From Gammaproteobacteria bacterium (lineage in GTDB: Bacteria > Pseudomonadota > Gammaproteobacteria > VBWC01): a stretch of 45,780 nt of DNA. The stretch's first letter is position 1. Every line of letters starts with the position of its first letter. A program made the position numbers and the translations under genes. Positions 29,089 to 36,787 of the stretch are shown here, piece after piece. Below the pieces are notes generated by a model, which saw only the letters and a program-made list of their open reading frames with translations, had not been told where the DNA came from and did not search any database. Location: the NCBI GenBank assembly GCA_023266115.1, contig JAHFRU010000011.1:1-45780 (forward strand), read 5' to 3'.

Positions 29089-31752
29089 GTGGCAAAGCAA
29101 AAACAGTCCGCAAAACAGTCAAAACAGCGTGGTGAATTAGCCGCAGCAGCGATCCAACCGGCACGCACCGCCACGCGTCCAAAAACGAAGCTCACTTTAT
29201 CGAGCCTCGAAACCCTACTGTTGCGCGCCTGCGATGACCTGCGCGGCAACATGGATGCCAGCGAGTACAAGGAATACATCTTCGGCATGTTGTTCCTCAA
29301 GCGCGCGAGCGATCTGTTCGATCAGCGCCGCGAGGAGTTGGAGAAGGAGTTCAAAGCCAAGGGCATGACGCCGGCGGCAATGCGCAAGCTACTCGATGAT
29401 CCAGATCAGTATTCGGGCAAGTACTTCTACGTCCCGGAAGTCGCGCATTGGTCCAAGGTAAAGCATCTCAAGGTAAATGTTGGCACTGGCCTGAACAAAG
29501 CATTGGAGGCAATCGAAGACGCCAGCATCGACGCGCTGCAGGACGTACTCAAGGGCATCAACTTCAACAAAAAGATCGGACAGCGCACGCTGGACGACGA
29601 CACGCTGTCTGATTTCATCCAGAACTTCGAAAAGATTCCCCTACGCGATAAGGACTTCGAGTTCCCGGATCTGCTTGGAGCGGCCTACGAATGGTTGATC
29701 AAATACTTCGCCGATTCCGCCGGCAAAAAGGCGGGCGAGTTCTACACCCCGGCTGAGGTCGTGCGCGTCTGCGTCGAGATCGTCGATCCGCAGCCCAACA
29801 TGACCGTGTATGACCCCACGGTCGGCTCCGGCGGCATGTTGATCCAGTCCCGCGATTACCTGCGCGAGTGCGGACACGACCCGCGCCACCTGTCTCTGTA
29901 CGGCCAGGAAAAGATGGGCACCACCTAGTCCATCTGCAAAATGAACATGCTGCTGCACGGCATCGCCCATGCCGACATCCGCCAGGAAGACACCATCAAG
30001 AACCCGGCGCACATGGACGAGGGCAACGAGCTGCGCCGCTATGACCGGGTGCTCGCCAATCCCCCGTTCAGCCAGAATTACAGCAAGAAAGACCTCAAAT
30101 TCCCCGGCCGCTTCCCGGTAATGATGCCCGAAAAGGGCAAGAAGGCCGATCTCATGTTCGTCCAGCACATGCTGTCGGTGCTGAAGAGCAACGGCAAGCT
30201 CGCCACCATCATGCCGCACGGCGTGCTGTTCCGCGGCGGCGAGGAGCGCGAGGCGCGCAAATACTTCATCGACAAAGGCTACCTGGAAGCGGTCATCGGC
30301 CTGCCCAGCAATCTCTTCTATGGCACCGGTATCCCCGCCTGCATCCTGGTGATGAACAAGGCCGGTGCCAGGGATCGCAAGCATGTGCTGTTCATCAACG
30401 CCGACCGCGAATACCGCGAAGGCAAGGCGCAGAACTTCCTGCGCCCGGAAGACATCGACAAGATCGTCCACGCCTACCGCCAAGGCGCGGATATCCCCGC
30501 TTATGCGCGGCGCGTGCCGGTGGAAGAGATCGCCGCCGAAGACTACAACTGCAACATCCGCCGCTATGTGGATAACGCCCCGCCGCCGGAGCCGCACGAC
30601 GTGCGCGCCCATCTGCATGGCGGCGTTCCAATGGTTGAAATCGAAACTATGGGGCATTGTTGGAGCAACTACGCGAAGCTGAAAGAAAGCTGCTTCGTCC
30701 CGCGTGGAAATGTAGGTTGGGTTAGCCCGCAGGGCGTAACCCAACAGGTTCGAGAGGAAACGTTGGGTTACTCTGCGCTAACCCAACCTACGGATTTTTC
30801 GTATGCAGATTTTGCCGACACGCTGAAACACAAACGCACCATCGCCGAAAACGTCGCCAACCACCCCGGCGTAATCGAGAGGCACGGCGCCTTCCTTACC
30901 CAACTGCAAGCCTGGTGGCAGAAAAGCCTGCCGCTGGTGGAAGCCCTTGCCCCGGACACCCACAACAAAAGCGGCCACGCCGGCAACGTCTACGCACTGC
31001 GCCGCAGCCTGCTCGCCAGCATCGCCGAGACCTTCAAGGGTCAGAACCTGCTCAGCCCCTACCAGGTGCGCGGCGCCTTCGCCAACTACATCAACCAGCT
31101 CAAGGCCGACCTCAAATCCATCGCGGCCAGCGGCTGGGGTCCGGAACTGATCCCGGATCAGGAGATCCTCGCCAGCCAGTTCCCGGAAGTGCTGGAAGAG
31201 CTGGAGCAATCCCGCGCCCGCCTCGCGGAACTGCAAGCCCTGTTTGCCGCGGCGGATGAAGAAGACTTCGAAGACACCGACGAAACCGGCGTGCTACCGA
31301 GCGACGAGGTGAAAAAGCTCAAGGCCGAACTCAAGGAGCTCAACACCCGCGCCAAACTCGCCAAGAAGGAAGGCGAAAAGAGCGAATGGACGGCGTACCT
31401 GGCCGAAGTCGAAGCAATCGAGAAACGCCTCGCCGCCCACAAGGCGCTGGAGCAGGAAGCCAAGACACTCAAGGCCGGCATCCGCACCACCGAGAAAAAA
31501 CAGGACGAATTGGTGGAAGCCGCCCGTGCCAAGATCAGCCGCGACGAAGCGCGCCAGGTCATCGTCGAACGCCTTGGTCGTTTGTTAATGGAAAGCTACC
31601 GCGCCTATTTGCGTGCCGATCAACGCGCCTGCGTCGCCGCCATTGAAAACCTCTGGAACAAGTACGCAGTCACGGCCAAGGAGATTGAAGCAGAACGCGA
31701 TGCCGCCAGCACCCAATTGCGGGAATTCCTGGAGGCGTTGGGATATGAGTGA
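29089..31752 (+). pseudogene. hsdM: Type I restriction-modification DNA methyltransferase subunit, interrupted by an amber codon
   Basis: Adenine-N6 methyltransferase subunit of a type I system. GTG at 29089 (AGGA 7 nt upstream) opens an HsdM N-terminal helical domain ([20 protein letters not shown]) and SAM motif [17 protein letters not shown] at 29926 replaces the tryptophan expected in [15 protein letters not shown]. The same frame continues through the catalytic VLANPPFSQNYSKKD, GVLFRGGEEREARKYFID, and a long coiled coil to TGA at 31750. Unless suppressed, two pieces of 279 and 603 residues (restart ATG 29941) result, splitting motif I from NPPF. An 80-bp palindromic element (30712-30791) adds an in-frame insert. 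It overlaps hsdS by 8 nt. Confidence 0.85.
30712..30791. mobile_element. 80-bp palindromic MITE/REP-like element inside hsdM
   Basis: Perfect 15-bp terminal inverted repeats: GTAGGTTGGGTTAGC at 30712-30726 and GCTAACCCAACCTAC at 30777-30791. Each half is also a hairpin: GTTGGGTTA 30716-30724 with TAACCCAAC 30737-30745, and GTTGGGTTA 30762-30770 with TAACCCAAC 30779-30787. Elements of this kind (GTAGGTTGGGTTA) are abundant non-coding repeats in beta- and gammaproteobacteria. Here it is read through in frame as VGWVSPQGVTQQ... and so on. No target duplication is obvious. Confidence 0.85.
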
Positions 31753-32998
31753 GTGGCTCGAAAAGCCTCTCGGCCAACTTGCCAAATTCCAAAAGGGCCG
31801 GAAGGTTGAGACTTCAGAGTACGAACAAGATGGCTATGATGGCTACCTTGGTGCGTCAGCGCTCGAAGGCGAAGTTGAAGGCTACGCGTCGACGAAATTG
31901 GCAGTTCGGGCCAATCCAAGCGATGTTCTTATGCTTTGGGACGGTGAGCGTAGCGGGTTGGTGGGACACAATCTTTCGGGTGTTGTTTCTTCAACGGTGT
32001 CGCGTATCACCCCTAGCAACGAAATTACCAGCTCATACCTTTACTACCACCTATTGTCACGATTTGAGTGGATACAGGGTAGGCGAACTGGAACTGGAGT
32101 CCCACATGTACCAAAAGACCTCTCGCGGATTCTGAAGGTCTATTACCCGAGGAAGCTGTCCGAGCAGAATGCAATTGTTGCCGTTCTAGCTTCCATCGAT
32201 GCCGCCATCAAGAGGACCGAAACCCTCATCGCCAAATACCAGCAAATCAAAGCGGGCCTGATGCACGACCTGTTCACCCGCGGTGTCACCGCCGACGGCA
32301 AACTGCGCCCGCCCCGCGAACAAGCGCCGGAGCTTTACCACGAAACACCGATTGGTTGGATGCCAAAGGAATGGGGTTGTAAATCGGTAGAGCAATTGTT
32401 GGCGCCTGTCGGCAACAATCTGCGAAGCGGCCCATTTGGAAGTGCGCTGCTGAAATCAGAACTCGTAGAAGAAGGTATTCCGTTTCTTGGCATCGATAAC
32501 ATCCATACCGAGCATTTTGAGGCCACATTTACACGACGCGTTTCTCGACAGAAATATTTAGAGTTGAATCGCTATTCCGTTAGGCCAAGAGATGTAGTGA
32601 TAACTATCATGGGTACAGTTGGACGCTGTTGCGTGTTGCCGGCCGACATTGGCGAAGCGCTGTCATCAAAACATTTATGGACAATGACGTTTGATAAAAC
32701 ACAAGTAATATTTGAGCTGGTTTGCTGGCAATTGAATTACGCCCCGTGGGTATTGTCATGGTTTAGGCGCGAGTCACAGGGAGCCGTTATGGACGCTATT
32801 CAATCGTCCACATTGCGCTCATTGATGTTGCCAGTTCCTTCGATTTCGGAACAGCAGGAGATTTTCAAGAAGTTTTCTGCGTGCCATACAATGGTCGAGT
32901 CTGAACAGGGCTCTCTAGCTAAATTAGTGCAAGAGAAGTTGGGGCTTATGCACGACCTCCTCACAGGTCGTGTTCGGGTGAAGGTCAAAAAAATCTGA
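31745..32998 (+). CDS. hsdS: Type I restriction-modification specificity subunit
   Basis: Determines the DNA target of the HsdMS and HsdRMS complexes. ATG at 31745 (MSEWLEKPLGQLAKFQKGRK) overlaps the end of hsdM by 8 nt, so translation is coupled. The 417 residues hold two target-recognition domains (about 1-150 and 215-375). Each is followed by a conserved helical spacer: LSEQNAIVAVLASIDAAIKR...GLMHDLFTRGV and ISEQQEIFKKFSAC...LGLMHDLLTGRV. The DNA of both TRDs is more AT-rich than hsdM or hsdR, as expected for exchangeable specificity modules. It can only work if HsdM is made. Confidence 0.92.
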   Translation: MSEWLEKPLGQLAKFQKGRKVETSEYEQDGYDGYLGASALEGEVEGYASTKLAVRANPSDVLMLWDGERSGLVGHNLSGVVSSTVSRITPSNEITSSYLYYHLLSRFEWIQGRRTGTGVPHVPKDLSRILKVYYPRKLSEQNAIVAVLASIDAAIKRTETLIAKYQQIKAGLMHDLFTRGVTADGKLRPPREQAPELYHETPIGWMPKEWGCKSVEQLLAPVGNNLRSGPFGSALLKSELVEEGIPFLGIDNIHTEHFEATFTRRVSRQKYLELNRYSVRPRDVVITIMGTVGRCCVLPADIGEALSSKHLWTMTFDKTQVIFELVCWQLNYAPWVLSWFRRESQGAVMDAIQSSTLRSLMLPVPSISEQQEIFKKFSACHTMVESEQGSLAKLVQEKLGLMHDLLTGRVRVKVKKI

Positions 32999-33056: not shown

Positions 33057-35078
33057 ATGACTAAAGTTCATGTAACCGCGAAACGAGATTTTCTCGAAAC
33101 ATTGACCGTCGCCAGACCATTGGCGGCGTTAGCGGAGCTTGTTTGGAATGGATTTGATACGGATACCAATCAAGTTCAAATCTTTCTCGAATTAAATGAC
33201 ATGGATGGAATACAGGCGATTCGTGTCCGTGATCACGGTTATGGAATCGATTACTCAAAGGTAGAAAATTTGTTCGGAAGCCTCGGCGATTCGTGGAAAA
33301 AAACGCGCGATCGTCAAAATGGGCGGGCGCTCCATGGTAAGAATGGCAAGGGTAGGTTCAAGGCGTTCGCGCTTGGGGAGCGCGTGGAATGGAACACTAC
33401 CTACCGACTCAATGGAAAAACGTATTCCTACAAAATTATGGGAAGTGCACAAAGTCTCGATGATTTTGACACGACCGATCCCGTCGAAGTAAGCGGTGCC
33501 CTGGTCGGAACCGAGGTGATTGTCTACAATCTTCAACACGACTTTCGCTCTCTGCAAGAGGATTCGACGCCGCTTGAACTGGCGAAAATGTTCGCGGCCT
33601 ATCTAACTGAATATCCGGATCTACGCCTCGAATACAACGGAATTGCCGTTGATCCCAAGAGCGTGCAAAGTCACCGTGGTGAGTATCACTTGGGGGATGT
33701 GGAGCTTGGCGACGGGAGTAAAGCCGCTGTAGCAGTGTCCATTATCGAGTGGAGTATTCCAGCCGATCGCGTTCTTCACCTGTGTGATGCAGGCGGAATT
33801 GCTCTGCATGAACTCCAAGTTGGCCCACAAATCCGCGCACCCGGTTTTCATTTCACCGGCTATATCAAGTCTGATCACTTCCGGGAACTGGACAAGCTGA
33901 ATCAACTCAGTCTTGCAGAATTGCATCCGGACGTGCAAACCATAGTCAAGTTAGCGAAGAACAAGATCAAAGAGCACTTCCGACGTCGCCTAGTCGAGGA
34001 TCAAAGCAAGATCATCGAACGTTGGAAGGAAGAACAAATTTATCCCTACGATGACAAGCTGAATCTTGATCCTGTTGAAACAGTCGAGCGACAGGTGTTT
34101 GATATCTTGGCCGTCAACGTCCAGAGCTACTTGCCGTCATTCGACGACGCCGATGTCAAATCCAAGAAGTTTACTTTCCGGCTTCTCGCGCAAGCGATTC
34201 GAGAAAACCCGGAGTCGGTGCAAAAAATTATTGGTGAAGTTCTCGGACTGAAAAAAGATGAACAGGATGAACTTGCCGAATTGCTCTATAAGACGCCGCT
34301 CTCTTCGATTATTAGCTCGGCAAAGATCGTCGCAAACCGTCTCGATTTTCTGAATGGGTTGGAGAATTTGCTTTTCGATAAGGAAAGCAAAAAGAAGCTA
34401 CTCGAACGAGATCAGTTGCATAAAATATTGGAAAACGAGGCGTGGCTATTCGACGAAGAATTTTCTCTTGCTGGTAGTGAAAGGCGGCTGGAAGAGGTGT
34501 TGAATATCCATCTTGATAAACTCGGAGCGCGTGAGGATGATCCCCATCCTGTTGAGATGGGCGAGGGTAAGGCTGGACGTGTCGATCTTATGCTGCACAA
34601 GGTCGTTCAGCCGCGCGTGGGCGAATACGATTACTTGATTATCGAATTAAAACGTCCGTCCAAGAAAATTGACGATGAGGTTCTTACTCAAATCAAGAAA
34701 TATGCTGCTGCCGTCGCCAAAGACGAACGGTTCCGGGATATTAAGACACGTTGGACGTTCGTGGCGATATCGAATGATCTTGATGATTTTGCAAAGAGTG
34801 AGGCGAACCAGAGAAATCGCCCGAGGGGGATGGTTTCAGATACCGCCGAACTCAACATTACGGTATGGGTAAAGTCGTGGGCAGATGTGATCAACGATGC
34901 TCGTGCTCGCTTGCACTTCGTAAATAGGCAACTCGCATATGAGGCAGATCGTGATAGCGCGAAAGCGTACTTGAAGAAGACTCACGCCAAGTTTATCCCG
35001 GACACCGCTCAGACGCGTGATGGCGATGATGAAGTTAAAGCTGAAGTCGACGGCGAGTCCAAGGGCACCTCTGTATGA
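33057..35078 (+). CDS. GHKL ATPase fused to a Shedu-like PD-(D/E)XK nuclease (putative defence protein)
   Basis: The 673-residue N-terminal region is a Bergerat-fold ATPase: N-box ELVWNGFD (E27, N31), Mg/ATP motif DHGYGID (D59), and lid HGKNGKGRF (93-101). This is like MORC, Hsp90 and MutL ATPases. The middle (about 200-440) is predicted helical with no call. The C-terminal 200 residues resemble the DUF4263/Shedu nuclease group: NEAWLFDEEFSLAGSERRLE, then D510 in GRVDLML, and E530-L-K532 in DYLIIELKRPSKK, a complete PD-(D/E)XK site. It is placed between hsdS and hsdR, is AT-rich, and overlaps the next gene as ATGA (35075-35078). I infer an anti-phage effector whose nuclease is gated by ATP. 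Confidence 0.75.
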   Translation: MTKVHVTAKRDFLETLTVARPLAALAELVWNGFDTDTNQVQIFLELNDMDGIQAIRVRDHGYGIDYSKVENLFGSLGDSWKKTRDRQNGRALHGKNGKGRFKAFALGERVEWNTTYRLNGKTYSYKIMGSAQSLDDFDTTDPVEVSGALVGTEVIVYNLQHDFRSLQEDSTPLELAKMFAAYLTEYPDLRLEYNGIAVDPKSVQSHRGEYHLGDVELGDGSKAAVAVSIIEWSIPADRVLHLCDAGGIALHELQVGPQIRAPGFHFTGYIKSDHFRELDKLNQLSLAELHPDVQTIVKLAKNKIKEHFRRRLVEDQSKIIERWKEEQIYPYDDKLNLDPVETVERQVFDILAVNVQSYLPSFDDADVKSKKFTFRLLAQAIRENPESVQKIIGEVLGLKKDEQDELAELLYKTPLSSIISSAKIVANRLDFLNGLENLLFDKESKKKLLERDQLHKILENEAWLFDEEFSLAGSERRLEEVLNIHLDKLGAREDDPHPVEMGEGKAGRVDLMLHKVVQPRVGEYDYLIIELKRPSKKIDDEVLTQIKKYAAAVAKDERFRDIKTRWTFVAISNDLDDFAKSEANQRNRPRGMVSDTAELNITVWVKSWADVINDARARLHFVNRQLAYEADRDSAKAYLKKTHAKFIPDTAQTRDGDDEVKAEVDGESKGTSV

Positions 35079-36787
35079 CGCCCACCGAACTACAGAAGAA
35101 GCTCGGCGAACTGCTTGCCCTGCCCGCCGAGACGGAGTGGGTGGAGTTCAAGCGCAACAACGACAAGCCGGACGAGATCGGTGAATACCTGTCGGCTATC
35201 GCCAACGGAGCGGCCCTGCATGGCAAGCAGACGGGTTACATCGTCTGGGGCATCAAGGATGGCGCGCACGAGGTGATTGGCACCTCGTTTGTGCCCAAGC
35301 GCGCGAAGGTCGGCAACGAGGCGCTGGAAAACTGGCTGCTCCGCCTGCTGAATCCCCGGATCGATTTTACGATTCACGAATTCAAATACGGCGAATTTCC
35401 GGTGGTGCTGTTTGAGGTGCAGGCCGCCAACTCGACGCCGGTGCGTTTCAGCGGAGAAGCGTTCATCCGCGTCGGCAGCTACAAAAAGAAGCTCAAGGAT
35501 TTCCCCGAGAAGGAACGCAAGCTGTGGCAGATGCTTTCCAGCACGCACGAGGACTGGTCGGCACAAATTGTTGAAGCCGCCAGCCTGGATGACCTTGACT
35601 CCACGGCGCTGCAATTTGCGCGTGCCCAATATAGGATCAAACATCCGCAACGTGCCGATGAAATGGATTCCTGGGATGACGTTACATTTTTGAACAAGGC
35701 GAAGGTGTGCATTGGCGGTAAGGTCACCCATGCCGCGCTTGTTCTGCTGGGCAAGGAGGAATCCGCGCATCTATTGGCGCCTGCGGCCGCCCAACTGACA
35801 TGGGTTCTGCGCAACGAGGCCAGAGTGGATCAGGACTATGAGCATTTTGGCTTGCCGTTAATTTTGTCCAGTGATCGCATTCTGAAAAAGGTGCGCAACT
35901 TAACGATTCGGCATTTGCCCAGCAGGACGCTGTTTCCGCACGAGGTCTCGCAATATGACCCATGGGTGATGCGCGAAACGCTACACAACTGCATTGCGCA
36001 TCAGGATTACACGTTGCGTGGCCGTACCAGCTTGGTGGAAACGCCGGATTCGCTGCTGTTCACGAACATGGGAACATTCATCCCCGGCACTGTGGAAGAC
36101 ATGATTCGCAGTGACGCGCCGCCAGCGGTGTACCGAAACAAGTTTCTGGCGGATGGCATGGTGAACCTGAATATGATTGACACCATCGGCAGTGGCATCA
36201 AAAAAATGTTCATGGCGCAGCGTCTGCGCAATTTCCCGATGCCGGATTTTGACTTGAGTAAAACGAATGAAGTAAGCGTCAGGCTCACGGGACAAATTCT
36301 TGATGAGAAATATACCCAGATGCTCATGGCGCGAGGCGAACTTGATTTGATGGATGTCATCGCTCTGGATAAAGTGCAAAAGCGTCGCGCTATCAGCGAC
36401 AATGAATTCAAAAGGCTCAAGGTGCAACATCTGATTGAAGGGAGGCGGCCGAATCTCTTCGTGTCGGCGGAGGTTGCATTGGCCACAGGTGCCAAGGCGG
36501 CATACATCAAGCATCGTGGCTTGGATAAGGCGCATTACAAAGCCTTGGTTATTTCTTATTTTGAACAATTCGGACAATCCAAACGAGCCGATATTGCTGC
36601 GTTTCTTCTGGAAAAAATCTCGGATGCACTTTCGACAGAACAAAAAGAAAATCGTATCAAGAATCTTCTTCAGGAAATGCGACGTGAGGGCACCCTGAAG
36701 AGCGAAGGCCAGGGTCCTGGTGCTCTATGGAAATTGGCTAAAACTGCGACTGACTCGAAGAATTTAGACCATTCAGATCAGGGATGA
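35075..36787 (+). CDS. AlbA_2 (Schlafen-type) domain protein coupled to the GHKL-nuclease
   Basis: The 570-residue protein begins with an AlbA_2 domain (about 10-140: ETEWVEFKRNNDKPDEIGEY, NGAALHGKQTGYIVWGIKDG, FIRVGSYKKKLKDFPEKERK). A HATPase_c_4/RecG-like middle follows (MRETLHNCIAHQDYTLRGRT, ETPDSLLFTNMGTFIPGTVE, LNMIDTIGSGIKKMFMAQRL). The C-terminus has winged-helix-like segments. Its ATG lies inside the TGA of the GHKL-nuclease gene (4-nt overlap), so the two are made together. It may be a nucleic-acid sensor or regulator for the partner nuclease, which is inference. It differs clearly from the other AlbA_2 protein at 27524. Its higher GC than the partner suggests separate origins. Confidence 0.8.
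   Translation: MTPTELQKKLGELLALPAETEWVEFKRNNDKPDEIGEYLSAIANGAALHGKQTGYIVWGIKDGAHEVIGTSFVPKRAKVGNEALENWLLRLLNPRIDFTIHEFKYGEFPVVLFEVQAANSTPVRFSGEAFIRVGSYKKKLKDFPEKERKLWQMLSSTHEDWSAQIVEAASLDDLDSTALQFARAQYRIKHPQRADEMDSWDDVTFLNKAKVCIGGKVTHAALVLLGKEESAHLLAPAAAQLTWVLRNEARVDQDYEHFGLPLILSSDRILKKVRNLTIRHLPSRTLFPHEVSQYDPWVMRETLHNCIAHQDYTLRGRTSLVETPDSLLFTNMGTFIPGTVEDMIRSDAPPAVYRNKFLADGMVNLNMIDTIGSGIKKMFMAQRLRNFPMPDFDLSKTNEVSVRLTGQILDEKYTQMLMARGELDLMDVIALDKVQKRRAISDNEFKRLKVQHLIEGRRPNLFVSAEVALATGAKAAYIKHRGLDKAHYKALVISYFEQFGQSKRADIAAFLLEKISDALSTEQKENRIKNLLQEMRREGTLKSEGQGPGALWKLAKTATDSKNLDHSDQG

Follow-up and report, generated by a model that had tools for sequence, protein, structure and literature searches.

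A REPIN read in frame in the linker of a gammaproteobacterial hsdM gene, and other repeats at the same site in HsdM homologues

Translated REPs are known from uvrA and recB. The closest described system is that of the REPINs, RAYT-associated REP doublets in which two REP units in inverse orientation, separated by a spacer, form a hairpin of about 80 bp with a GTAG head (PMC3116915). REPINs are mostly extragenic, although this is a trend rather than a defining rule, and in SBW25 only 14 of 1,067 REP 16-mers overlap genes (PMC3116915). According to the main-text section on intragenic REPs in PMC3733652, dimers of GTAG/CGTC REPs in ORFs add 20–30 residues to the protein, and different REPs occupy about the same recB site in two Xanthomonas species; hsdM is not mentioned in that section (Additional file 3 apart). 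The classic translated palindromes are the Rickettsia palindromic elements, which lie in frame inside conserved proteins (PMC2229807).

The locus described here was found in a window of 45,780 nucleotides, the whole stretch of DNA that was analyzed, from contig JAHFRU010000011.1 of a gammaproteobacterium. It carries an element with the anatomy of the REPINs in PMC3116915 and, where the family is dispersed (Gallionella), a RAYT with flanking REPs as in that system. It differs in being intragenic and translated, in having one full copy in its own genome and in that the RAYT inspected there stands beside another REP. With the intragenic GTAG/CGTC REPs, as presented in the section cited above, it shares the dimers in ORFs and the different REPs at about one site; unlike these, it involves further repeat families in one HsdM linker, and a transfer tract could be traced between lineages. 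It resembles the Rickettsia elements as a palindromic repeat in frame in a conserved protein, and is set apart from them by description, since those measure 105–146 bp and have Rickettsia hosts, whereas the other REPIN-bearing HsdM genes belong to Gallionella and a zetaproteobacterium. An earlier note on this DNA had stated that such repeats are nearly always intergenic, which is fair, but intragenic REPs are documented (PMC3733652). The REP sequence itself was not found in the literature searched.

Anatomy of the element and state of the hsdM gene

The segment at 30712–30791 is a REPIN, i.e., a doublet of GTAG-headed REP units in inverse orientation (Table 1). The two-hairpin palindrome with perfect 15-bp ends described in the earlier note was confirmed with exact coordinates: the arms 30712–30726 and 30777–30791 are 100% complementary over 15 nt, and both hairpins were recovered. 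Folded as single-stranded DNA (106 nt), the element reaches -32.7 kcal/mol compared to -13.2 +/- 2.3 kcal/mol in 200 shuffles (z -8.4), none of which was as good (0/200). The tetranucleotide heads are found at the outer ends of this element as well as of the dispersed copies. Frame 0 of the element translates as VGWVSPQGVTQQVREETLGYSALTQP, and the remaining two forward frames contain stops. No convincing direct repeat indicating a target-site duplication was seen at the junctions when the flanks were judged by eye.

Table 1. Features of the hsd locus and of the element inside hsdM (positions in the window).
Feature	Position	Strand	Basis or remark
hsdM, type I restriction-modification methyltransferase subunit, internal TAG	29089..31752	+	Pfam HsdM_N, N6_Mtase; stops at codons 280, 888
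Premature TAG at nearly invariant Trp (GTT*SICKMNM)	29926..29928	+	W247 in 30-sequence alignment A1
REPIN, two REP hairpins inversely oriented, in frame within hsdM	30712..30791	+	Folding, inverted-repeat anatomy, related copies dispersed over other genomes
Left REP unit, GTAG head, hairpin 30716-30745	30712..30746	+	Identical in four HsdM copies and one dispersed Gallionella copy
Spacer separating the REP units	30747..30761	+	Resembles spacers in the other three HsdM copies
Right REP unit, inverse orientation, hairpin 30762-30787	30762..30791	-	Hairpin anatomy
hsdS specificity subunit, open	31745..32998	+	Methylase_S
hsdR, open, 1082 aa	36893..40141	+	TIGR00348, 429 bits

Within the window, no other inverted repeat has perfect 15-bp arms lying no more than 100 bp apart, a CRISPR-like pair at 275/337 excepted. 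In this part of the window GTGTTCCCCACGCGCGTGGGGTGGAC occurs twice (271–296 and 332–357), 61 bp apart, and these two repeats look like what is left of a type I-E-like CRISPR array. Behind this pair, the DNA reads like an IS3-type transposase and contains a run of at least 10 G. Additionally, two genes were observed between hsdS and hsdR (33057–36787), one encoding a GHKL-type ATPase domain and the other a Schlafen/AlbA domain.

The hsdM gene shows HsdM_N and N6_Mtase matches (Pfam) on the part before the TAG and an N6_Mtase match on the part after it. The earlier statement that the frame stays open to the normal C-terminus holds from 29929 to the stop at 31750–31752, but the whole hsdM frame is interrupted upstream. 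This amber codon is separate from the insertion and is the real sign that this hsdM copy may be broken. Replacing a nearly invariant tryptophan upstream of the NPPF motif, it raises the possibility that hsdM is a dying pseudogene here and the insert tolerated junk, a reading that concerns the present state of the gene and is compatible with the main account given below. It is considered possible but rather doubtful, as the 888-codon frame contains no further stop beyond this TAG, hsdS and hsdR are open, the same REPIN occurs in uninterrupted HsdM frames elsewhere (see below), and the stop, a single substitution away from TGG, could be an error in the sequence. Furthermore, dN/dS against the nearest relative, L018, is about 0.08 both upstream and downstream of the insert, so that the interruption would be either a recent mutation or a sequence error. 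Against close relatives the flanks of the element give values of about 0.08–0.16, which indicates purifying selection on both. The suggestion that the insertion itself marks a loss of selection is not supported, in view of these values and of the uninterrupted relatives that carry the REPIN.

Dispersal of the REPIN family and its probable arrival with restriction-modification genes

The family is dispersed in the genome of Gallionella C24 (G377), the source of the HsdM homologue L042, where 20 matches to the element were found at E <= 0.01. The loci read there are mostly full doublets with GTAGGTYGGGTTAGC ends, and their spacers are unrelated. On contig C17 of this genome, a RAYT (NF047646, 190.9 bits, cut-off 80) is located between two REP units of the family. 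The 15-mer GTAGGTYGGGTTAGC is present in 37 of the 369 genomes of the window's class, and its reversed control in only a few genomes. In two signalling proteins of Gallionella C24 (L122 and L125), other REPINs are translated in frame in the stretch that separates the receiver domain from the HPt domain, which fits a general tolerance of interdomain linkers.

A search of the window's own genome for other copies, as proposed in the earlier note, returned the single full copy in hsdM and otherwise partial matches, the best of them 31–37 bp long at 81–90% identity. Its contig 9 encodes a RAYT (NF047646, 194 bits, above the cut-off) which adjoins a different REP, AGGGCGGAAGCCCGCAGGGCGTTCCGCC; four further Y1_Tnp matches are present in this genome, and the inspection of REP flanks covered the contig 9 RAYT. 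One other genome of the window's order was matched by neither the hsdM query nor the REP 15-mer. These observations make it likely that the element arrived in this genome together with the restriction-modification genes. The left REP unit was absent from the viral contigs searched, in which one HsdM relative was matched, and plasmids and phages gave no HsdM relative at the limits used.

Inserts at the HsdM linker in homologues

An alignment of 51 HsdM sequences, window included (921 columns), shows that a linker of three residues (FVPRDxxYxDF) usually connects the methyltransferase domain to the C-terminal helices. Inserts of at least 8 residues were found at this position in 11 of the 51 sequences, the window's among them, while 40 have none. 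The same REPIN lies at the linker in the same frame in L019 and L042 of Gallionella and in L022 of a zetaproteobacterium, and is carried there in uninterrupted HsdM frames. Three homologues thus have the segment, but most lack an insert, so that it is an insertion common to these genes; the refuting case named in the earlier note, close homologues with the segment as ancestral coding sequence, is not what was found. The earlier note's picture of a palindromic mini-element inserted in frame is borne out, the element being a mobile one; the uninterrupted frames agree with its idea of a repeat turned into a protein linker, and its estimate of about 27 added residues between the catalytic and coiled-coil regions comes close to the roughly 27–29 determined here, which separate the methyltransferase domain from the helical C-terminal part. 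For the HsdM of L042, an AlphaFold model gives residues 509–541, where the insert lies, a pLDDT below 50; the model is poor overall (mean 62.6, pTM 0.44) and counts for little as evidence.

Inserts of at least 15 residues were found in eight sequences within 17 of the 921 columns at the linker, compared to two elsewhere. Counted by family, five of seven lie at the linker (binomial p = 4e-8), where the p-value serves as a guide only, since the region was defined after seeing the data. Apart from the REPIN, inserts at the linker are carried by L041, L018, L021, L020, L025, and L047. In L041 it is a doublet of another family, TTCGACAAGCTCAGGACGAACGG (TTCGACA), with 20 matches in the host genome and none for the reversed control. 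A G-rich element is present at the linker in L018, L021, and L019; it recurs in both Gallionella genomes at counts similar to those of the control, the pattern being self-similar, and occurs once each in the host genomes of L018 and L021. In L019 the REPIN is followed by the G-rich element with an extra segment inside. The L041 doublet and the G-rich element come from dispersed repeat families other than that of the REPIN, the G-rich one less clearly because of its control. The L020 insert was rejected as a dispersed repeat, being single-copy in its host, and so was that of L047, whose pattern matches its host once, in hsdM itself; the L047 pattern has no match in the host of L025.

Several side observations concern methyltransferase genes of this kind. 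In Gallionella, a related composite repeat lies in frame in an MmeI-like methyltransferase gene (L154, around 1014) and another in an N6_Mtase gene that looks frameshifted (L155, around 1040). In a Granulosicoccus hsdM (L070, 6798–8054), an insertion containing transposase-like ORFs breaks up the gene close to this linker. Finally, hsdM-like pieces of Thiohalocapsa stop or start at contig ends near the linker (end of L064, start of L067).

A selected role of the inserted peptide or of the hairpin, e.g., in tuning HsdM assembly or the hsdM mRNA, might be read from the arms being more conserved than the flanks, synonymous positions included. Recent transfer explains the arm identity equally well, most homologues have the three-residue linker, the linker inserts are unrelated in sequence and the spacer diverges, so that such a role is regarded as very improbable. 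The most suitable reading of the insert is that of a translated linker which the protein tolerates.

Probable origin and exchange of the loop

On the HsdM tree, the presence of the REPIN requires four separate changes, and therefore a single insertion followed by vertical descent is insufficient alone. The linker could be a preferred landing site of RAYT-driven REPINs at which the four HsdM genes were hit separately. The four changes would agree with this, as would the other inserts sharing the linker and the REP arms, which are 97–98% identical between the window and L022 or L042 while the flanks are 66–80% identical. Near-identical arms within diverged flanks would, taken alone, suit recent independent insertions, but the spacers and junctions argue for the opposite. 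Dispersed REPIN spacers vary from copy to copy, whereas those of the HsdM copies are similar to one another (shuffle p for the window = 0.0025 against L022 and L042, 0.03 against L019). The junctions agree at codon level: the Arg codon before the element is equally far away in the window, L019, and L042, as is the Tyr codon after it in the window, L042, and L022. In addition, L022 carries L042-type flanks along with the REPIN. Independent insertions are therefore considered unlikely, with some probability left for the window's own copy.

The tract of L022 extends over about 77 codons at the loop, REPIN included, and 44 of its 50 informative sites are L042-like (0/2000 permutations). Outside this Gallionella-type tract, the backbone of the zetaproteobacterial gene is L035-like (Nitrosomonas-like). 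It thus seems that local recombination is what moves the loop. For the window, its best L022-like run against L018 spans the loop (9/11, p = 0.01), and the best L038-like run of L018 against the window spans it as well (p = 0.002). Nine recombination tests were made, of which several peaked elsewhere in the gene, and for the window's own lineage p was no better than 0.01–0.07 over several tests, which counts against the account; recombination would be the presumed route into this lineage. As a single account, local recombination that takes the loop along fits best.

Taken as a whole, the account considered likely is as follows. A REPIN, presumably mobilised by a RAYT-type enzyme, would have entered an hsdM ancestor in the only forward frame that can be read through, at the flexible linker that joins the methyltransferase domain to the helical C-terminal region. 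Its presence in this genome would be due to restriction-modification genes that moved horizontally and not to a jump within the genome. The linker would tolerate added residues, so that frame-keeping inserts survive at this site, and short homologous recombination would exchange the loop, insert included, among hsdM alleles. The inserted peptide would be a passive, probably neutral, translated linker. A wider version, in which the HsdM linker serves generally as a place of exchange, with mobile repeats of several families entering in frame and loop and insert then being swapped between alleles and across phyla by short recombination, is put forward tentatively and held to be unlikely as yet.

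Translated REPs and palindromes are already known, and the part worth following is the HsdM linker as a hotspot together with the exchange of its loop. At this locus one can follow how a mobile palindrome was turned into part of a protein and afterwards spread along with the gene that carries it. For annotation it gives a warning, as peptides like VGWVSPQGVTQ..., LPSP..GAGGEG, and ..RGEPVEP are translated repeats and not domains. The HsdM linker, accumulating unrelated repeats, is a natural series for testing insert tolerance and exchange in a conserved enzyme. If the linker is a general exchange site, selfish repeats would be a continuing source of new linker peptides for restriction-modification enzymes, and this might have selected effects.
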